Positions 1 to 30,156 of a stretch of 64,000 nt of DNA are shown in pieces (position 1 is the stretch's first letter; each line of letters begins with the position of its first letter). The stretch spans positions 2,356,001 to 2,420,000 of the forward strand of contig NZ_JACCFH010000001.1 of the NCBI RefSeq assembly GCF_013410775.1. Direction: 5' to 3'. Position numbers and translations under genes: made by a program. The DNA comes from Sphaerotilus montanus. GTDB lineage: Bacteria > Pseudomonadota > Gammaproteobacteria > Burkholderiales > Burkholderiaceae_C. The notes under the pieces are model-generated. The model was not told the origin of the DNA. It saw nothing but the letters and a program-made list of their open reading frames with translations, and did not search any database.

Positions 1-113
1 TGTTGATCGCGCAGGCTCAGTACAGGCATGGCAGAGCCGGCGGCCAGCGCACAGCACAAGGCGGTCAGGGCGGTGGCCCAGAAGGTCCGGCTGCGGGTCG
101 AGCGATGCGTCAT
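1..113 (-). CDS. Exported protein, 5' part only (runs off the left edge)
   Basis: The ATG at 113-111 opens a frame that stays open to base 1, giving about 37 residues. It begins MTHRSTRSRTFWATALTALC, with basic residues followed by a hydrophobic stretch and small residues (AAGSA), which is a typical Sec signal peptide. Its ATG overlaps the stop of the globin gene (ATGA), so it is probably the last visible member of the cyd/MBL/globin operon. The mature protein lies outside the window, so no function can be given. Confidence 0.6.
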   Translation of the reverse strand, partial: MTHRSTRSRTFWATALTALCCALAAGSAMPVLSLRDQ

Positions 114-550
114 CGCGGGCACCCCACGGCGTGGCTGGTGTCACGGGTGTTGACCATGTGCTGGGCCATGTCGGAGAAGGCCCGCTCGATCGCGTCATGC
201 AGCGCCGGGTCGGTCACCTGCTCCGCGAGCGCCTGGCGCATGCACAGCATCCATTCGTCGCGCTCCACGGGGCCGATGGCATAGGGGGCATGCCGCATGC
301 GCAGCCGGGGGTGGCCGCGCTCGCGGATGTACAGCGGTGGTCCGCCGAACCAGCCGCTCAGGTACTTGAACAGGCTGTCGGCGCTGCCCGCCAGACTGTC
401 GGGATGCAGGCGCCGCACGGTGAAGGCTTCGGGCAACTCGTCCATGAGCGTGTAGAAGCGGTCCACCAGCGCGTGGATCGCCGGAGCGCCGCCCAGACGG
501 GTGTAGACGCTGTCGGTGGCGACCGTGGTGTCATCCAGGGTGTCGGTCAT
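110..550 (-). CDS. Group II truncated haemoglobin (GlbO-like)
   Basis: A 146-residue protein. Near the N-terminus it reads YTRLGGAPAIHALVDRFY, followed by FKYLSGWFGGPPLY, then RHAPYAIGPVERDEWMLCM, with the conserved Trp of helix G expected in group II truncated globins. This family binds O2/NO and is often tied to oxygen supply or NO/peroxide protection. The ATG at 550 was chosen by family length; an in-frame ATG at 574 overlaps the 3' end of the MBL gene and is possible, and neither has a strong ribosome site. Its place behind the cyd genes fits a role in low-oxygen or NO-stressed respiration, which is inferred. Confidence 0.85.
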   Translation of the reverse strand: MTDTLDDTTVATDSVYTRLGGAPAIHALVDRFYTLMDELPEAFTVRRLHPDSLAGSADSLFKYLSGWFGGPPLYIRERGHPRLRMRHAPYAIGPVERDEWMLCMRQALAEQVTDPALHDAIERAFSDMAQHMVNTRDTSHAVGCPR

Positions 551-561
551 GGTGTGGGTTT

Positions 562-1245
562 TCAGGTTCTGCATTCGGGATGCCCGAGGGGGGGGCTGGC
601 CACCGACATCACGCGTACCCGGGCCAGGAACTCGTCGCGTGTGGCGCCCCCGAACCAGGGATGCCAGCGCCGCTGTTCGAGCACGCTGGAGACGGTGCGG
701 GCCCGCTGGGCGTGGCCGGTGAACAGCAGCGTTTCGTCGGGCCGTCGGAAGACCTTGTTCATCACGCTGTCCCACAACGACTCCGGCAGGGCCGGGCGCG
801 GCTGGAAGGGGCAGGCGTCCACGGCCAGCAGCCCGCCGCAGAACAGCCGGTCCCGCCACAGGTAGCTCAGACAGCCGGCGGTGTGCCCCGGGGTCTGCAG
901 CACCTGGATGTGTTCGTTGCCAAAGGTCAGGACGGCGTGCGCGGGCTCGGTGGTGGCGTTGCGGGTCCGGGTTCGAGTTCGGGTCTGCGAAGGCGGGGGC
1001 AGGCCATGCTGGATGCGAGGGGCACCGAGTGCTTCCAGTGCCACGACTTCGCCCTTCAATACGTCGTCGTGCTCATGGGTGCGCAGCAGCCAGCGCAGGC
1101 GCAGGCGGTGTTCGTCGAGCATGGCCCTCAGCAGGGGCACATCGGCGCCGCGCGGGTCGACCAGCACGGCCTCGCCAGCGTCCAGATCGCCCAGCAGATA
1201 GCTCACCGCGCCACTGCGTTCGTCGTGCAGGATCCGGAAATACAT
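562..1245 (-). CDS. MBL-fold metallo-hydrolase (persulfide dioxygenase/glyoxalase II-like), altered metal motif
   Basis: A 227-residue metallo-beta-lactamase fold protein resembling the short persulfide dioxygenase/glyoxalase II group. The metal motif THxHxDH reads THEHDDVLKGE, so the last His is replaced by Val. Further on, TPGHTAGCLSYL and LLFTGHAQRAR keep the later His ligands. Persulfide dioxygenases use a mononuclear iron and tolerate some ligand changes, but loss of this His makes activity doubtful. A Thr-Arg repeat at about residues 87-94 comes from a 6-base repeat in the DNA. It starts 3 bases after ybgE and is co-directional with cyd. The sulfur-rich surroundings favour a persulfide role, by inference only. 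Confidence 0.7.
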   Translation of the reverse strand: MYFRILHDERSGAVSYLLGDLDAGEAVLVDPRGADVPLLRAMLDEHRLRLRWLLRTHEHDDVLKGEVVALEALGAPRIQHGLPPPSQTRTRTRTRNATTEPAHAVLTFGNEHIQVLQTPGHTAGCLSYLWRDRLFCGGLLAVDACPFQPRPALPESLWDSVMNKVFRRPDETLLFTGHAQRARTVSSVLEQRRWHPWFGGATRDEFLARVRVMSVASPPLGHPECRT

Positions 1246-1248
1246 GGG

Positions 1249-1554
1249 TCACCCCTTCAGCATGGCGGCCAGCAGCAGCGCGGCAGCACAGGACCAGCCC
1301 GAGAAGAACACCCGCCAGATCCACCGCTGCGGCACGAAGCCCACGCCCCGGACGAACCCGGCGCTCATGGCCCAGAACAGGGCCATGGCGAGCGGGTGGT
1401 CGGCCTTGCCGGTCGCATCGGCCATCAGCGGGGGATACAGCGTGCCGACCACCATGATCAGCAGCGCCACGGCCAGGCTGGGCAGGTGCGTGCCCGGCGG
1501 CTGTGGGGGTGGTGTCATGGGGGGGACCAGGGCGGGCGACGTGTCCACGGTCAC
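1249..1554 (-). CDS. ybgE: Cyd operon membrane protein YbgE-like
   Basis: A 101-residue small membrane protein with about three hydrophobic segments (LAVALLIMVVGTLYPPL; MALFWAMSAGFVRGVGFV; FFSGWSCAAALLLAAML). Size, topology and position directly after cydX match the cyd-operon YbgE family, whose role in cytochrome bd assembly or stability is not well defined. It begins with GTG at 1554, which overlaps the cydX stop (GTGA), indicating translational coupling. The N-terminal 25 residues are Pro-rich and probably cytoplasmic. Confidence 0.75.
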   Translation of the reverse strand: MTVDTSPALVPPMTPPPQPPGTHLPSLAVALLIMVVGTLYPPLMADATGKADHPLAMALFWAMSAGFVRGVGFVPQRWIWRVFFSGWSCAAALLLAAMLKG

Positions 1555-1679
1555 CGTCTCCAGGCGGCCGAGCGCTCGGCGGCGTCGGCCCGGCCGCTCT
1601 CGTTCTCACCCCACAGCGCGTTCATGATGGCCAGCAGGACGGCAAAGCCGACGCCGAGCATCCAGGCGAAATACCACAT
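1551..1679 (-). CDS. cydX: Cytochrome bd oxidase small subunit CydX
   Basis: A 42-residue single-span protein beginning MWYFAWMLGVGFAVLLAIMN, then ALWGE. This WYFAWxLG...ANxxxWE pattern is the hallmark of CydX, the small subunit that packs against CydA and stabilises the haem b595/d site. It lies 41 bases after cydB and overlaps ybgE. The charged C-terminal tail (ESGRADAAERSAAWRR) is cytoplasmic. Recognition is clear despite the small size. Confidence 0.92.
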   Translation of the reverse strand: MWYFAWMLGVGFAVLLAIMNALWGENESGRADAAERSAAWRR

Positions 1680-1720: not shown

Positions 1721-2863
1721 TCAGTAGGCGGTGTGTTCGTTGGCGCGGATGTGCGCCAGCGTGACCTTGCCGCGCATCACGCGGTAAGCCCACGAGGTGT
1801 AGAACACGATCAGCGGCATGAAGATCAGCGTGGCCCAGAACATCAGGCCCAGCGTCAGGTGGCTGGAGGCGCTGTCCCACACCGTCAGGCTGGCGTTCGG
1901 CTGGGTCGAGGACGGCATGACAAACGGGAACATCGCCGCACCCGCGGTGCCGATGACCCCCACGATGGCCAGCGCGGACGCCACGAAGGCGCTGAGCGTG
2001 TGGCGCGCGGCCACCAGCGCCGCCGCGATCAGCGCCCCGGCGATGCCCAGCAACGGCAACGACCAGAGCAGCGGCTGCGCACGGTAGTTGCGCCACCAGG
2101 CGTCGGCGCTGCGCGCCACGGTCTTGGCCAGCGGGTCCGGCAGCGCGCCAGGATCGATGGCCGAGGTGATGACATAACCCTCGATGCTCCCGAACTTCAG
2201 CCACAGCCCGGCGCCGATGAAAGCCACCACCATCAGCCCCGCCGCACCCACCGCCCCCCACACGGCGCGCTGCTGGATCGCACCCTCGGTGCGGTGCGCC
2301 AGGTACATGCCGCCGTGCATCGTGATCATCGCGCTGCTCACCACGCCCGCCAGCAGCGCGAACGGGTTGAGCAGTTGCCAGAACGTGCCGGTGTAGGTGC
2401 TGATGAGGTAGTCGTCGAAGCCGAACGGCACGCCCTGCAGCAGGTTGCCGAATGCCACGCCGAAGATCAACGGCGGCACGGCCCCACCGATGAACAGGCC
2501 CCAGTCCCAGGTGCTGCGCCAGGTGGCGTTGTGGACCTTGCTCCGGTAGTCGAAGCCGACCGGCCGGAAGAACAGCGCCCACAGCACCGCCAGCATCGCC
2601 CAGTAGAAGCCGCTGAAGGCGGTGGCGTAGACCAGGGGCCAGGCCGCGAAGATGGCGCCGCCGCCGGTGATGAACCAGACCTGGTTGCCGTCCCAGTGCG
2701 GGCCCACGGTGTTGATGACGACGCGGCGTTCGTCGTCGCCCTGGCCGACAAACGGCAGCAGCGTGCCCACGCCCATGTCGTGGCCGTCCATGATGGCGAA
2801 GCCGACGAGCAGCACGCCCACCAGCAGCCACCAGAGGATCTTGAGGGTCGGGTAGTCGATCAT
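1721..2863 (-). CDS. cydB: Cytochrome bd ubiquinol oxidase subunit II
   Basis: A 380-residue multi-span membrane protein. The N-terminus MIDYPTLKILWWLLVGVLL is followed by GFAIMDGHDMGVGTLLPFVG and by TVGPHWDGNQVWFITGGG, the signature block of CydB. Its length matches the E. coli protein (about 379). CydB pairs with CydA to form the quinol oxidase that reduces O2 to water at very low oxygen and is resistant to sulfide and cyanide. It starts 17 bases after the cydA stop and is clearly co-transcribed with it. Confidence 0.97.
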   Translation of the reverse strand: MIDYPTLKILWWLLVGVLLVGFAIMDGHDMGVGTLLPFVGQGDDERRVVINTVGPHWDGNQVWFITGGGAIFAAWPLVYATAFSGFYWAMLAVLWALFFRPVGFDYRSKVHNATWRSTWDWGLFIGGAVPPLIFGVAFGNLLQGVPFGFDDYLISTYTGTFWQLLNPFALLAGVVSSAMITMHGGMYLAHRTEGAIQQRAVWGAVGAAGLMVVAFIGAGLWLKFGSIEGYVITSAIDPGALPDPLAKTVARSADAWWRNYRAQPLLWSLPLLGIAGALIAAALVAARHTLSAFVASALAIVGVIGTAGAAMFPFVMPSSTQPNASLTVWDSASSHLTLGLMFWATLIFMPLIVFYTSWAYRVMRGKVTLAHIRANEHTAY

Positions 2864-2880: not shown

Positions 2881-4437
2881 TCAGGCGTGCGCCGGTTCGA
2901 ACTGGTAGCGGCCGGTGCCGAGCGAACCCGGGCCCTGGCGCGCGAACTTCTGCATCAGGTAGACCTCGACGACCAGCAGCACGGTGTAGAAGCCGATGAA
3001 CCCGGCCAGCGAGCCATACAGGCTGTTCACGCTGAGCGTGGAGACGCTCATGTGCGTGGGCAGCACGCCGTAGATGGTCCAGGGCTGGCGGCCGTACTCG
3101 GCCACCACCCAGCCCAGCTCGCAGGCGATCCACGGCGCCGGCAGCATCAGCACCGCAGCGCGCAGCAGCCAGGGCCGCGTCTGGAACTCGCCCTTCAGCG
3201 TGGCCCAGAAACTCAGGCCGAACAGCAGCAGCATCGCGAAGCCCAGCCCGACCATGATCCGGAAGCTCCAGAACATCGGCGTCACGCGCGGCACGGTGTC
3301 GTGCATGGCCTGGTCGATCATCGCGGGGGTGGCCTGGCGCACGTCGGTGGTGTATTTCTTCAGCAGCAGGCCGAAGCCGAGGTCGCCCTTGGTCGCTTCG
3401 AGCACGCGCTTGGCGACCACGTCGTCGCGGTGTTTGCGCAGCGTCTCCAGCGCGATCACCGCGGTGATGCCGTTGACGATGCGTTCTCGGTTCTTCGCCT
3501 TGATCTCGTGGATGCCGGGGATCTGCTTGGTCACCGAACGGGTGCCGATCAGGCCCATCACCCACGGGATCTCGACCGCCCAGTCGTTCTTCTGCTCAGC
3601 CTCGTTGATGCCCGCGATGACGTTGAAGCTGGCGGGTGCGGGCTCGGTTTCCCACATGGCCTCGATGGCGGCCAGCTTGGTCTGCTGGGCCTCGCCCACG
3701 GTGTAGCCGCTTTCGTCACCGAGCACGATGACGCTCAGCACGCTGGCCAGACCGAAGGCCGACGCCACGCGGAAGCTGCGCTTGGCGAACTCGATGTCGC
3801 GGCCCCGGAGCAGGTACCAGCTCGACACCGACAGCACGAACATCGCCCCCGTCACGTAGCCCGCCGACACGGTATGCACGAACTTGGCCTGTGCATCCGG
3901 GTTGAACACCACGGCCCAGAAGTCCGTCATCTCCATGCGCATGGTCTGGTAGCTGAACTCCGCGCCCACCGGGTTCTGCATCCAGCCATTGGCGATCAGG
4001 ATCCACAGCGCGCTCAGGTTGGTGCCGACCGCCATCAGCACGGTCACCATCAGGTGCTGGGTCTGTTTCAGCCGGTCCCAGCCGAAGAAGAACAGGCCGA
4101 TGAAGGTGGACTCCAGGAAGAAGGCCATCAGCCCTTCGATCGCCAGCGGGGCGCCGAAGATGTCGCCCACGTAGTGCGAGTAGTAGGCCCAGTTGGTGCC
4201 GAACTGGAACTCCAGCGTGATGCCGGTGGTGACGCCGAGCGCGAAGTTGATGCCGAAGAGCTTGCCCCAGAAGCGGGTCATGTCCTTCCAGATGACCAGG
4301 CCGGTCATCACGTAGACGCTCTCCATGATGACCAGCAGCCACACCATGCCCAGCGTGAGCGGCACGAACAGGAAGTGGTACATCGCCGTGGCCGCAAACT
4401 GCAGCCTCGACAGGTCGACGAGTTGTTCTGAAATCAA
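2881..4437 (-). CDS. cydA: Cytochrome bd ubiquinol oxidase subunit I (long Q-loop type)
   Basis: A 518-residue CydA. The haem ligands sit where expected: His21 in TAMYHFLF, His188 in KFVHTVSAG and Met395 in SFRIMVGL, each two residues beyond the E. coli positions 19/186/393. Glu101 and Glu109 of the proton path are present in IEGLMAFFLES. The region between about 255 and 390 is long, as in E. coli-type (long Q-loop) enzymes. The start is a TTG at 4437, inferred because it gives the conserved N-terminus SRLQFAATAMYHF and overlaps the cydP stop (TTGA), suggesting coupling. With cydB, cydX and cydP it forms the oxidase operon. Confidence 0.97.
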   Translation of the reverse strand: MISEQLVDLSRLQFAATAMYHFLFVPLTLGMVWLLVIMESVYVMTGLVIWKDMTRFWGKLFGINFALGVTTGITLEFQFGTNWAYYSHYVGDIFGAPLAIEGLMAFFLESTFIGLFFFGWDRLKQTQHLMVTVLMAVGTNLSALWILIANGWMQNPVGAEFSYQTMRMEMTDFWAVVFNPDAQAKFVHTVSAGYVTGAMFVLSVSSWYLLRGRDIEFAKRSFRVASAFGLASVLSVIVLGDESGYTVGEAQQTKLAAIEAMWETEPAPASFNVIAGINEAEQKNDWAVEIPWVMGLIGTRSVTKQIPGIHEIKAKNRERIVNGITAVIALETLRKHRDDVVAKRVLEATKGDLGFGLLLKKYTTDVRQATPAMIDQAMHDTVPRVTPMFWSFRIMVGLGFAMLLLFGLSFWATLKGEFQTRPWLLRAAVLMLPAPWIACELGWVVAEYGRQPWTIYGVLPTHMSVSTLSVNSLYGSLAGFIGFYTVLLVVEVYLMQKFARQGPGSLGTGRYQFEPAHA

Positions 4438-4610
4438 GGTTGATCTCCGCTGGTGGCGACAGGGGCGCTCAGGTGAGCCGCAGCCACGTCGACATCGACG
4501 CTGACCCGCTCATCCCGCACGAAGGCCGCCCACAACCCGACCAGCACCACCAGCTTCAGGCCGATGGCGATGGCGAGATGGCGGACCAGACGGTCTTGGG
4601 GCGTATTCAT
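4434..4610 (-). CDS. cydP: Putative cytochrome bd small subunit CydP
   Basis: A 58-residue single-span protein. The N-terminus has DRLVRHLAIAIGLKLVVLVG followed by LWAAFVRDERV, matching the CydP family (basic RLVRHL, one helix, then FVRD) found in front of cydA in many beta-proteobacteria. Its stop overlaps the TTG start of cydA. The ATG at 4610 was chosen for family fit. An open frame extends upstream to 4730, and the predicted sigma-54 start point lies only 2-3 bases before this ATG, so either the leader is almost absent or that promoter call is wrong. Confidence 0.75.
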   Translation of the reverse strand: MNTPQDRLVRHLAIAIGLKLVVLVGLWAAFVRDERVSVDVDVAAAHLSAPVATSGDQP

Positions 4611-4622
4611 ACCCCAGTACGT

Positions 4623-4638
4623 ATCAAGAGGCGTGCCA
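4623..4638 (-). promoter_or_regulatory. Candidate sigma-54 (-24/-12) promoter of the cyd operon
   Basis: On the minus strand the bases read TGGCACG-CCTC-TTGAT, close to the sigma-54 consensus TGGCACG-N4-TTGCW (GG at -24; the -12 GC is GA here). It lies between cydP and three operator-like palindromes, about 65-130 bases downstream of them, the normal enhancer distance for a sigma-54 activator. One such activator is encoded divergently next door. The weakness is that transcription would start only 2-3 bases before the cydP ATG. Confidence 0.5.
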
Positions 4639-4700
4639 CCGCCCGGATGCGGAAAAAATCCTTCTGAAACAAGGTCTTGCGAGAAGGCTACGACTGGCCC

Positions 4701-4757
4701 CGCCAACATGGCAGATTCATCAACTGCCATGTTGGCGTAATGCTGCCAATATGGCAG
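4701..4757. promoter_or_regulatory. Three TGCCA-N3-TGGCA operator sites, two forming a perfect 14-bp inverted repeat
   Basis: Sites are at 4701-4714 (CGCCAACATGGCAG), 4724-4737 (CTGCCATGTTGGCG) and 4743-4757 (CTGCCAATATGGCAG). Each is itself a short palindrome around a 3-base centre. The first two are exact reverse complements separated by 9 bases. Centres are about 24 and 19 bp apart, so the sites lie roughly on the same helix face. They sit between cydP and the sigma-54 activator and are the best candidates for its upstream activating sites, possibly also for control of its own gene. Confidence 0.65.
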
Positions 4758-4814
4758 TAGACTGTTCAGCCCAATCCCGGTGTCGGGATCCCTTTCCGCT
4801 GTGGAGCGTCAACT

Positions 4815-6167
4815 GTGGCCACTGTCCTGCCTGAACTGGTGTCGTATCTGGAGGGGCTGCCAGAGCCGCACATCCTGTTTGACCGGCAATACCGGATCGT
4901 CGCGGCCAACGCCGCCTATCGGCGCCAGTTCAGCCCGCGGGGCTCGGTGATCGGGCGCACCTGCTACGAGGTGTCCCACCATTTCAGCGTGCCGTGCGAC
5001 CAGGCGGGCGAAAGCTGTCCGCTGGCCCGCTCGCGCGAGACCGGGCAGCGCGAGCGTGTGCTGCACCTGCACCACACGCCGCAGGGCGAGTCCTACGTCA
5101 ACATCGAACTGGTGCCACTGCGCGAAGTCGGTGGCGAACTGGCGTACTTCATCGAGAAGATGGAACCCTTGCGCGTGGCGCAAGGCCAGCCGGCCGCCCA
5201 GGGGCTGATCGGACGCGCGCCGGCCTTTCAGCGGATGCTGGAGTTGGTGTCACGGGTCGGGCCGTCGCAGGCCAGCGTGCTGCTGCTGGGGGAGTCGGGC
5301 ACGGGCAAGGAACTGGTCGCCCAGGCGGTCCACGAAGCCAGCCTGCGCGCGGCCAAGGCACTGGTGGTGGTGGACTGCGCCAGCCTGCCCGAGACGCTGT
5401 TCGAGAGCGAACTCTTCGGCCACGAACGTGGGGCCTTCACCGGGGCCAACCACAGCAAGCCCGGATTGGTGGAAGCGGCCAGTGGCGGCACCTTGTTCCT
5501 GGACGAGGTGGGAGACATCCCGCTGCTGATGCAGGTGAAACTGTTGCGGCTGCTGGAGAGCGGCACCTACCGCCGCGTGGGCAGCACGGAGCTGCGGCAT
5601 GCCGATGTGCGGGTGGTGTCCGCGACACACCGGCACCTGCGGGCGATGGTGGCCGACGGGCGGTTCCGTGAGGATCTGTACTACCGGCTGAGCACCTTCC
5701 CGATCGCGCTGCCGCCGCTGCGGGAGCGGGTCGAGGACATTCCCCTGCTGGCCGTCGCCTTGCTGGCGCGGGTGACCCCTGATCGCCGGATGGCGCTGTC
5801 CGCGGATGCGCTTGCGCTGCTGCAACGCTGTCCGTTTCCGGGGAATGTGCGTGAACTGCGCAATGTGCTGGAGCGCGCAGCACTGCTGGCTGATGGGGTC
5901 TGCATCGAGGCCGTTCACGTGGAGCGCGCTCTTGACACCGAGGATCCCCACGCTGGCCGGGAGCTGTGGTCCGCCGAGTCGAGTCACCCGGCGCCAGCTT
6001 CCGCATCGGGTATGTCATTGCGCTGCGTGGAGCGTGCGGCCTTGCGGGCGCAACTCCAGACCCACCGTGGCAGCCGGGCGGAACTGGCCCGCAAACTTGG
6101 CATCAGCGAGCGGTCGCTGTATCGGAAGTTGCGTGACATGGACTCGGCGGATCCGCCTGGTCCATGA
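4815..6167 (+). CDS. PAS-domain sigma-54 dependent activator, likely regulator of cyd
   Basis: A 450-residue enhancer-binding protein. Residues about 10-125 form a PAS domain carrying three cysteines (C50, C61, C68) in [12 protein letters not shown] and GESCPL, suggesting a redox, metal or sulfur-species sensor. The AAA+ domain follows with Walker A GESGTGKE (around 158), the sigma-54 contact loop GAFTGA (around 207) and Walker [10 protein letters not shown]. The C-terminus has a Fis-type helix-turn-helix ([20 protein letters not shown]). It starts with GTG at 4815, preceded by GGAG at 4803. It is divergent from cyd, and the intergenic palindromes imply control of that operon. The ligand is unknown. 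Confidence 0.9.
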
Positions 6168-28239: not shown

Positions 28240-28530
28240 TCAGCGGACCTTGCCCAGCAGCGTCTGCATGTCGCCCAGCATCGTGTCGAGCTGGGTGACG
28301 TCGTCTGGCTGCAGGTTCAGGCGGTCCTTGAGTTCCTGGTGCATGAAGCACACCGTCATGCGCACGTAGGCGCTGTCGAGGGCCTTGCGCACCGCGGCCA
28401 TCTGGCTGGCGATGTCGAGACAGGGCTCGCCCGCCTCGATCATGCGCTGGATGCCGCGCAGCTGGCCTTCGGCGCGCTTGAGGCGGTTGAGCAGGTCGGT
28501 GCGGCTGGTTTCGTCTTGGAGCTGGGCCAT
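28240..28530 (-). CDS. CsoR/CstR-superfamily (DUF156) transcriptional repressor
   Basis: A 96-residue all-helical repressor: LLNRLKRAEGQLRGIQRMIE, then C37LDIASQMAAVRKALDSA and C61 in VRMTVCFMHQELKDRL. The His of the copper site (C-H-C) is absent at the expected place, so it is not a standard CsoR. Two cysteines point to a CstR-like persulfide sensor, although the second is displaced by several residues from the usual position. It sits between DUF2892 and OsmC genes behind SQR, which supports sulfide-stress control. The start MAQLQDE was chosen as the family N-terminus. Confidence 0.85.
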   Translation of the reverse strand: MAQLQDETSRTDLLNRLKRAEGQLRGIQRMIEAGEPCLDIASQMAAVRKALDSAYVRMTVCFMHQELKDRLNLQPDDVTQLDTMLGDMQTLLGKVR

Positions 28531-28591
28531 GGTGCAAGCCTCTCGGGAGGTCAGGTCGGTCATCGGATGCCCCATTGTCCCTGCTCCGTGT

Positions 28592-28816
28592 TCAGCGTGC
28601 GCAGACCGAGGGGCCTTCCGGCACACCGAGCTTCTTCAGGATCCACCCCAGCGGGCAGGCATTCGTGAAGCCGAACTGCAGCAGGTTGGCGCCGACGAAG
28701 GCGGTGAAGGCCAGCGCCCAGCGGCTGACGAACAGCGGGCTGCCCTCGATGCCGAGTGCCAGCGAGAGGAGGATGAAGGTGCCCGCGAAGATGCGGATGA
28801 GACGGTCGACAGTCAT
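28592..28816 (-). CDS. DUF2892 small membrane protein
   Basis: A 74-residue protein with two hydrophobic segments (LIRIFAGTFILLSLALGI and WALAFTAFVGANLLQFGFT) followed by ACPLGWILKKLG, the signature of DUF2892. The same module forms the membrane part of YgaP-type rhodaneses. Stand-alone copies often accompany SQR, rhodanese and CstR genes. The role may be sulfur-species handling at the membrane; it is not established. Confidence 0.85.
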   Translation of the reverse strand: MTVDRLIRIFAGTFILLSLALGIEGSPLFVSRWALAFTAFVGANLLQFGFTNACPLGWILKKLGVPEGPSVCAR

Positions 28817-28881: not shown

Positions 28882-30156
28882 TCAGTCGTTCAGGCGCACG
28901 ATGCCCAGCAGCTTGAGCACGTACTTCTCGTAGACCGGCTCCGAGTGGCCGGAGCGCATCTTGGCGAGGAAGTACTTCTCGAAGGCGATCTTGGCCAGGT
29001 GGACCCACTTGCCCTTCCTGAACCAGTTGACGTTGCGTGGCGGGATCTGCGGCAGCGCGACGAAGGCCGCCCCGGTGTCGCCCATGTCGGCCAGGCAGAT
29101 GGCGTTCCAGGTGCCGCGGGCGGTGGCGGGCCGGCCGGCCAGCTCGTCCACGATGTTGCGGGCGATGGCCGTCACCATGGTCTCGATCATGTAGCCGGTC
29201 TTGGGTGCCCCGGTGGGCACCGGGGTCACCTCCACCGGTGGAATCGCCACGCACACGCCGGCCGAGAAGATGTTGCGCCAGGCCTTGCTGCGCTGGAACT
29301 CGTCGATCAGCACGAAGCCGCGCGGGTTGCACAGCCCCGGCACCGCCGCCACCGGCGCGACGCCCTGGAAGGCGGGCAGCATCATCGCCAGCTTGAACGG
29401 CACCTCGTGCTCCTTGTAGACCTGCCCGAGGTCGTCGAGCTGGGTGACGTGCATCCGGTCTGCCTCGACGGAGGTGGTGCGGGCGCTGGTGATCCACTTG
29501 ATGTCGCGGCTGCGGAATTCGGACTCCAGCATCGACTTGCTGTCGCCTACGCCGCCGAGGCCGAGGTGGCCGATGTAGGGCTCGCTGCTGACGTAGGTCA
29601 TCGGCACCTTGTGGCGCAGCTTGCGCCGGCGCAGGTCGGTGTCGAGGATGAAGGCGAACTCGTAGGCCGGCCCGAAGCAGCTGGCACCGGGCATCGCGCC
29701 GACCACCACCGGGCCGGGGTTGTCCAGGAAGGCCTGGTAGTCGGCCCAGAACTGCTCGGCGTGGTCGACCGTGCAGACCGAATGGGTGTGGCCGCCGTGC
29801 GGGCCGGCGCCGGGCACCTCGTCGAAACCGAGCTTGGGGCCGGTGGTGATGACGAGGTAGTCGTAGTCGAGCGTGTCGCCGCCATCGAGCGTCAGGCGGC
29901 AGGCCTCGGCATCGATCTGCGTCACGGCCTTCGCGATGAAGCGGATGCCCTTGCGTTCCAGCAGCGGGGCGATCTGCAGCGTGATGGCGCTGCGCTCGCG
30001 CCAGCCCACGGCCACCCAGGGATTGGACGGCGTGAACTGGAAGTAGTCGGTCGCGCTGACCACCGTGACGCTGTGTGCCGCGTCGAGCTGCTCGCGCAGT
30101 TCGTAGGCCGCGGGCATGCCGCCGATGCCGGCGCCCATGATGACGATGTGGGCCAT
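28882..30156 (-). CDS. sqr: Sulfide:quinone oxidoreductase, type I
   Basis: A 424-residue FAD enzyme oxidising sulfide to sulfane sulfur with electrons to quinone. The N-terminal FAD motif is IVIMGAGIGGMPAAYELRE. The three catalytic cysteines appear as C128 (HSVCTVDHAE), C160 (MPGASCFGPAYEF) and C354 (AICLADMGD), matching the C128/C160/C356 set of the Acidithiobacillus type I enzyme. The C-terminal amphipathic helices (WFRKGKWVHLAKIAFEKYF) anchor it in the membrane. A GGAG ribosome site precedes the ATG. It leads the cluster with DUF2892, CsoR-like and OsmC genes. Confidence 0.95.
   Translation of the reverse strand: MAHIVIMGAGIGGMPAAYELREQLDAAHSVTVVSATDYFQFTPSNPWVAVGWRERSAITLQIAPLLERKGIRFIAKAVTQIDAEACRLTLDGGDTLDYDYLVITTGPKLGFDEVPGAGPHGGHTHSVCTVDHAEQFWADYQAFLDNPGPVVVGAMPGASCFGPAYEFAFILDTDLRRRKLRHKVPMTYVSSEPYIGHLGLGGVGDSKSMLESEFRSRDIKWITSARTTSVEADRMHVTQLDDLGQVYKEHEVPFKLAMMLPAFQGVAPVAAVPGLCNPRGFVLIDEFQRSKAWRNIFSAGVCVAIPPVEVTPVPTGAPKTGYMIETMVTAIARNIVDELAGRPATARGTWNAICLADMGDTGAAFVALPQIPPRNVNWFRKGKWVHLAKIAFEKYFLAKMRSGHSEPVYEKYVLKLLGIVRLND

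Follow-up and report, generated by a model that had tools for sequence, protein, structure and literature searches.

The window, the 64-kb stretch of DNA analysed here, carries a cytochrome bd operon and, divergent from it, the gene for a predicted sigma-54-dependent activator (Table 1). The genes cydP, cydA, cydB, cydX and ybgE, together with those for a metallo-beta-lactamase (MBL)-fold hydrolase and a truncated globin, are so closely packed that they probably form one operon. Only the MBL hydrolase, with its partial similarity to Blh, is an adjacent candidate for sulfide oxidation; its relatives lie near 19 of the 95 activators compared below. Elsewhere the window encodes a flavocytochrome c sulfide dehydrogenase (FCSD) flavoprotein, YeeE/YedE-type sulfur transport, an SQR-like protein, RuBisCO and phosphoribulokinase, so that the host looks like a sulfur-oxidizing autotroph. 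The SQR-like gene (28882-30156) is adjoined by a gene for a CsoR/CstR-family (Trns_repr_metal) repressor (28243-28626), possibly a second, independent sulfur-responsive control in this genome.

Table 1. Features of the cyd-activator locus (window coordinates).
Feature	Position	Strand	Remarks
Truncated (bacterial-like) globin, likely last operon gene	110..574	-	Pfam PF01152
MBL-fold hydrolase	562..1245	-	partial similarity to GloB and part of Blh; all NCBIfam matches below cut-off
ybgE	1249..1554	-	Pfam PF09600
cydX	1551..1679	-	Pfam PF08173 on 1554-1679
cydB, cytochrome bd subunit II	1721..2863	-	NCBIfam TIGR00203, 494.5 bits (cut-off 117.3)
cydA, cytochrome bd subunit I	2881..4437	-	Pfam PF01654; TTG start overlaps cydP stop
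cydP, small bd subunit	4434..4610	-	NCBIfam NF045611, 44.3 bits (cut-off 29.6); ATG at ~ +3 of predicted transcript
Predicted transcription start	4611..4613	-	~4612, 12 nt from -12; derived from the element at 4623-4638
Sigma-54-type -24/-12 element, TGGCACG-N4-TTGAT	4623..4638	-	faces cydP; GA at -12, not GC
IHF-like site CAAGACCTTGTTT	4667..4679	-	one mismatch to YAANNNNTTGATW; 41 bp upstream of -24 element
Predicted enhancer palindrome CGCCAACATGGCA (4701-4713)	4701..4714	.	one mismatch to TGCCA-N3-TGGCA; centre ~ -95
Predicted enhancer palindrome TGCCATGTTGGCG (4725-4737)	4724..4737	.	one mismatch to TGCCA-N3-TGGCA; centre ~ -119
Predicted enhancer palindrome TGCCAATATGGCA (4744-4756)	4743..4757	.	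exact TGCCA-N3-TGGCA core; centre ~ -138; type enriched beside orthologous activators
FisR-like activator	4815..6167	+	Pfam PAS_4, Sigma54_activat, AAA_lid_14, HTH_8

The first-pass annotation had placed three TGCCA-N3-TGGCA palindromes between cydP and a divergent PAS-AAA+-Fis activator, and Pfam and NCBIfam matches confirmed both the activator's domains and cydP. All three palindromes are present in the intergenic region, although only one has the exact core, the other two departing from it by one mismatch each; the exact 14-bp inverted repeat attributed to two of them was likewise found, 4701-4714 and 4724-4737 being reverse complements of each other. The number of such palindromes in the window is ordinary (4 with at most one mismatch, against ~3.4 expected), but their clustering is not: none of 600 windows simulated with a first-order Markov model had three within 56 bp, and 8 of the 600 had two. 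The host genome contains 7 perfect palindromes, and only that of the window has a -24/-12 core inside its 3-kb locus.

On the cydP side of the palindromes, the proposed -24/-12-like element was read directly from the minus strand as TGGCACG (4638-4632), a CCTC spacer and TTGAT (4627-4623). We take the sigma-54 consensus to be GG at -25/-24, G at -13 and C at -12: the GG and the G are present at the right spacing (TGGCACG-N4-TTG, 4638-4625), whereas 4625-4624 reads GA and the C is missing, so that we call the element a sigma-54-like variant rather than a member of the consensus. With the distance from -12 that we presume for such promoters, transcription would start only 2-3 bases from the cydP ATG, a proximity that had been flagged as a caveat from the outset and that holds. 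The candidate IHF site further upstream was recognized by its likeness to the IHF consensus YAANNNNTTGATW; it contains a TTGAT that is also an FNR half-site.

Conservation of the palindromes beside orthologous activators had been set beforehand as a test, for which we compared 95 loci that match a strict PAS motif, out of 107 examined (12 were dropped for want of a match or for truncation; in a smaller earlier set, 11 of 67 loci had been dropped for lack of a strict match). As these loci are related by descent, the counts that follow are not independent trials. Palindromes with at most one mismatch numbered 30 before the 95 activators, compared with the 2.7 that other windows at these loci would predict, an approximately elevenfold enrichment, and perfect ones 15 compared with 0.33; the prediction thus stood, though in 23 of the 95 loci only, the other 72 having no palindrome with at most one mismatch. 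A -24/-12 core pointing away from the activator was present at 68 of the 95 loci as opposed to 60 of 4870 control windows from the same loci, and the strict core was not found in the remaining 27. When IHF-like cores with at most one mismatch were sought at 108 offsets upstream of the -24 element in the 68 loci, 31 matches were obtained, so that most loci have none by this rule; 21 of the matches fell at offsets 38-44 and 20 at 40-42, the window's own lying at 41. At the level of sequence, these comparisons define an activator family with its predicted operator and -24/-12-type promoter and, for part of the family, a preferred position of an IHF-like site.

That a short intergenic region matches the palindrome and -24/-12 patterns by mere chance is, in light of these figures, barely credible. 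Single one-mismatch palindromes are common, as the count for the window shows, and the base at -12 is uninformative by itself, since the 68 family cores (A 36, C 21, T 6, G 5) and the 60 control cores (A 27, C 19, T 9, G 5) have A there about as often, which is no proof of a selected A. Chance fails, however, to account for the clustering, for the enrichment over 95 loci and for the co-occurrence with the activator described below. The support for the window's element comes from its place and from the repeated TCTTGAT form in close relatives. A search of the host genome for TGGCAYRNNNYTTGA returned 4 places, of which 2 are the promoters of the two activator copies that this genome encodes; at the other 2 no palindrome was seen by eye. 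The pattern TGGCAYGNNNYTTGAN{11,14}ATG, run over 349 family genomes, matched in 67 of them and was non-discriminating, and it was not used as evidence; the activator itself is found at E <= 1e-150 in 50 of the 349.

The activator consists of a PAS domain (residues ~12-112), a sigma-54 AAA+ domain (131-297) with a GAFTGA loop, and a Fis-type helix-turn-helix (HTH; 402-440), the sensor, AAA+ and Fis HTH arrangement of the FisR type, and the genome encodes one RpoN match and three DNABII proteins. Three cysteines stand in the PAS domain, C50 (4962-4964), C61 (4995-4997) and C68 (5016-5018). Among 44 aligned PAS domains (that of the window and those of 43 of the 54 loci L009-L062, i.e. without L019, L031, L036, L040, L044, L050, L052, L056, L059, L061 and L062), the invariant residues are C50, S54, H55, P60, C61, G65, E66, C68, P69, H84 and H86. 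The motif C-x10-C-x6-C occurs in the window and in 52 of the same 54 loci, the exceptions being L019, where the match begins past C50, and L062, which gave no PAS match. According to the accessible parts of the respective accounts, the regulatory cysteines of FisR number three (PMC9774590), and the Cupriavidus protein forms a tetrasulfide between C53 and C64 (PMC8614764, PMC9495516), a step of 11 residues equal to that from C50 to C61. Architecture and cysteine spacing assign the divergent protein to the FisR type of bacterial enhancer-binding proteins, and it is accordingly predicted to bind DNA.

A second copy of the activator, 75% identical, lies in the same genome (G000:C1:1686061-1687392; L089:6062-7426), divergent from a Rieske protein gene and with TGGCATGCATCTTGAT and an ATG close behind. 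This arrangement suggests that the regulon includes an extra Rieske subunit, and the second copy could share the palindrome sites with the first.

The first-pass annotation had offered redox, NO or sulfide as the signal. The neighbourhoods of the relatives, along with the cysteine spacing, favour sulfide or sulfane sulfur: within 6 kb, 13 of the 95 activators have SQR1, 9 SQR2, 10 PDO and 9 SQR-DUF442. Among the relatives' neighbours are genes for SQR-like and persulfide-dioxygenase-like (Blh-like) proteins and for a fusion of an SQR-like protein with a TIGR01244 sulfurtransferase domain; SQR and Blh are names given on NCBIfam matches below the model cut-off, TIGR01244 on one above it. A pdo or SQR-like gene accompanies the activator in L198, L027, L029 (pdo), L060, L114 and others. 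Cupriavidus metallidurans CH34 encodes a homologue, 52% identical, whose gene is divergent from pdo and an SQR-like gene; the perfect palindrome TGCCAACTTGGCA and the element TGGCACGGGTTTTGAG face pdo there, and another perfect palindrome, together with TGGCACGGAATTTGTA, is found ahead of a downstream gene whose product is hydrophobic. In L027 (an Oxalobacteraceae MAG), pdo and the SQR fusion gene lie on one side of the activator and cydPAB on the other; L029 (Pseudomonas sp. LD120) has pdo on one side and cydPAB on the other, no sqr being seen at that locus. At both loci cydP is preceded by a perfect palindrome and a -24/-12 element, the latter looser in L029. Towards pdo, L027 has a strict core and palindromes with two mismatches only, and L029 lacks a strict core. 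The activator of L060 is divergent from an SQR-like gene, with two perfect palindromes at the 24-bp spacing of the window, and in L114, from the same genus, the cyd operon comes with an SQR-like gene. The L114 operon (L114:1116-4202) includes SQR-like, DUF302 and Rieske genes that the operon of the window does not have.

Redox and NO persist as competing signals: sigma-54 and the activator would still control cyd, while the PAS domain would sense NO or O2/redox, directly or by means of a cofactor, metal or Fe-S, liganded by C50, C61, C68 and the invariant histidines. We regard this reading as unlikely, albeit one to be taken seriously. H55, H84 and H86 are invariant alongside the three cysteines, and a cytochrome bd with a truncated globin is also compatible with NO stress. 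The PAS fold was predicted with a mean pLDDT of 89.7, and the model resembles LOV, NifL and VqmA domains, binders of diverse ligands; the 50 Foldseek matches listed for it are generic PAS/LOV folds, and a search of solved structures with the PAS profile gave no match at E <= 0.1. In the available text on Acinetobacter baumannii, moreover, FisR works without the regulatory cysteines (PMC7315123), which means that cysteines and signal are not tied everywhere. Against this reading stand the recurrence, no more than 6 kb from relatives, of genes for SQR-like or persulfide-dioxygenase-like proteins, the score of the activator with the NorR equivalog model (310 bits, cut-off 476) and the lack of an NO reductase among those recurrent neighbour clusters that were named. 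The signal is likely to be sulfide or sulfane sulfur, and the output sulfide-resistant respiration.

The proposal that the linked activator controls cyd through sigma-54 gained support from the cydA loci. In the genus, a window-type cydA (E <= 1e-100) is found in 3 of 13 genomes, and the activator adjoins all three; with 24 more from 120 order-level genomes, this gave 27 loci. Of the 9 loci with an adjacent activator, 8 had a core in the 500 bp upstream of cydA, and of the 18 without, none had one (Fisher p 4e-6, a value that overstates independence because the cydA loci are related by descent). Loci counted as being without have no activator within ~1.5 kb on either side of cydA, and they include L237 and L252, with ~0.6 kb of upstream sequence only, and L248, L249 and L251, with a match of 29-33% identity. 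The last three belong to another family of the order, and their activator-like region, accompanied by no -24/-12 core upstream of cydA, may encode a different activator; brief inspection did not bring out its reading frame. Within the set examined, the predicted promoter before cyd is present solely where the activator is adjacent.

Divergent regulators often control themselves. This general tendency, the off-consensus -12 and the purely predicted start would all suit an arrangement in which cyd is transcribed from a different promoter (a sigma-70 promoter under FNR, ArcA or a comparable regulator), while the palindromes serve the activator's own gene or a distant target, and a perfect FNR-like box does occur in the promoter region of L014. 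Yet a simple scan found no sigma-70-like site in 4400-4900, which speaks against a sigma-70 promoter for cyd, and the TTGAT of the window's promoter was rejected as an FNR/Anr site for want of a second half-site: TTGAT-N4-ATCAA within two mismatches has 12 matches in the window and 0 in 4437-4815. The core, moreover, faces cyd and is found there only with the activator adjacent (27 cydA loci), and the cyd operons of L027 and L029, although situated downstream of the activator, each carry a palindrome and -24/-12 element of their own. Another promoter for cyd is accordingly hard to sustain. The L014 box, TTGATGGCCATCAA (L014:5680-5990), lies between the palindrome and the -24/-12 element, where relatives have the IHF-like site, and there may be FNR input in some relatives.

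A linked sigma-54 activator beside cyd had been called unusual, which does not hold within the activator family: of the 95 activators, 30 have a bd operon no more than 6 kb away, and in 12 of those cases the same span also includes an SQR-like or PDO-like gene. A quick tree of the 95 activators shows at least 18 changes in linkage to the bd operon. A divergent cyd-like oxidase is present in L009, L035, L037 and L038; its matched pieces are 32-46% identical to CydA, and we take it to be of the CIO type. The cbb3 oxidase assembly protein CcoG is encoded, frequently together with a Rieske protein, within 6 kb of 17 of the 95 (L013, L014, L117-L119, L123, L164, L165, L168, L173, L174, L177, L183, L185-L187 and L189), in place of cyd except in L173, which has both. 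Some activators fetched by AAA+ similarity (L065-L068, L073 and L075) follow what appears by eye to be a histidine kinase gene, and perfect TGCCA-N3-TGGCA palindromes occur in L066, L067 and L068.

The closeness of the predicted start to the cydP ATG recurs in the family. A relaxed core lies within 420 bp of cydA in 32 of the 35 loci with a CydA match, and in 16 of the 32 a cydP-frame ATG follows 11-13 nt past the -11 base, at about +2 to +4 (the window, L010, L011, L024, L027, L029, L114, L116, L158-L161, L175, L184, L192 and L196; L024 and L184 have another in-frame ATG nearby). An ATG at such a distance is also present in L193 and L197, with a second in frame six bases on. The likely cydP start is 25-32 nt past the -11 base in L025, L166, L170, L173, L179, L180, L181 and L188, with an earlier in-frame ATG as well in L170 and L188, and L194 has an ATG at 29 with a stop soon after; no start class was given to the remaining five (L016, L022, L026, L042 and L047). 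The position of the ATG suggests that cydP would be translated from a near-leaderless mRNA.

Akin to the protein of the window, FisR of Cupriavidus pinatubonensis JMP134, reportedly the subject of Li et al. in 2017, is a Fis-family sigma-54 activator with a cysteine pair 11 residues apart, and an operator and promoter of the same form occur in the pdo/sqr-like cluster of C. metallidurans, whose homologue served as proxy for the protein comparison. It differs in that its targets named in the accessible descriptions are sulfide-oxidizing genes, whereas the adjacent target in the window is the cytochrome bd operon. The NorR-norVW system also pairs a divergent sigma-54 activator with three enhancer sites, but it has another DNA motif and another sensor, and the window's activator scores well below the cut-off of the NorR model. 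YgaV/SqrR-type repressors, presumably of the ArsR family, are not sigma-54 activators. The available portion of PMC11858517 implicates YgaV in coupling sulfide to cytochrome bd expression in Escherichia coli, a likeness to the present case. A further parallel is A. baumannii, where FisR is a sigma-54 activator divergent from the pdo1-sqr operon and where sulfide induces cydAB too; apart from the cysteines that FisR lacks there, the difference is that this induction is not assigned to FisR in the part of the article available (PMC7315123). The same text describes cytochrome bd as refractory to sulfide, and its expression as raised by sulfide in A. baumannii, E. coli and M. tuberculosis (PMC7315123). 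For C. necator, a partial text reports that a point mutation upstream of cydA2B2 raised a reporter ~1000-fold and that rpoN mutations arose in some CO-tolerant isolates (PMC10164946). Among literature on FisR, sigma-54/RpoN and sulfide with cyd, the accessible parts of PMC7315123, PMC8148161, PMC9774590, PMC11540253, PMC11858517, PMC10164946, PMC2864759 and PMC3916325 report no FisR or sigma-54 control of cyd; subscription journals fall mostly outside this coverage, and an earlier report is possible. The FisR type is known for sulfide-detoxifying genes; the target predicted here is a cytochrome bd operon.

Taken together, the results make it quite probable in our judgement that a FisR-type activator, sigma-54 and three enhancers drive cyd in response to sulfane sulfur, for sulfide-resistant respiration. 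Sulfide oxidation would give rise to reactive (sulfane) sulfur, which would modify C50 and C61, and perhaps C68, of the PAS domain. The three TGCCA-N3-TGGCA-like enhancers, centred near -95, -119 and -138, would then serve as the sites from which the activator works; DNA bending at the IHF-like site (~ -60) would bring this protein to RNA polymerase-sigma-54 at TGGCACG-N4-TTGAT, and ATP hydrolysis by the activator would open the cyd promoter. The single operon cydPABX-ybgE-MBL-globin thereby made would supply a sulfide-insensitive quinol oxidase with accessory genes, and respiration could go on while sulfide poisons haem-copper oxidases.

A FisR-type regulator thus appears to control a sulfide-insensitive respiratory enzyme here and in many relatives. 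Considerably more tentative, and in our view possible rather than probable, is the wider idea that activators of the FisR type serve throughout beta- and gammaproteobacteria as a general switch to respiration that withstands sulfide, governing terminal oxidases (bd, CIO-like), an extra Rieske protein, CcoG and pdo/sqr through sigma-54 promoters, many of them with TTGA at -12, with a near-leaderless cyd branch in which the cydP start at +2 to +4 ties promoter position to translation. The off-consensus -12 and a start codon lying almost at the 5' terminus of the transcript bear on the form that a sigma-54 promoter and its mRNA may take. If the proposal is true, a sensor wired via sigma-54 to an oxidase operon would provide a direct, testable mechanism for sulfide-resistant respiration and a compact sulfur-responsive genetic switch. 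It would also bring sulfide detoxification and the remodelling of electron transport into a single regulon, and would help to explain how cells keep breathing in sulfide.
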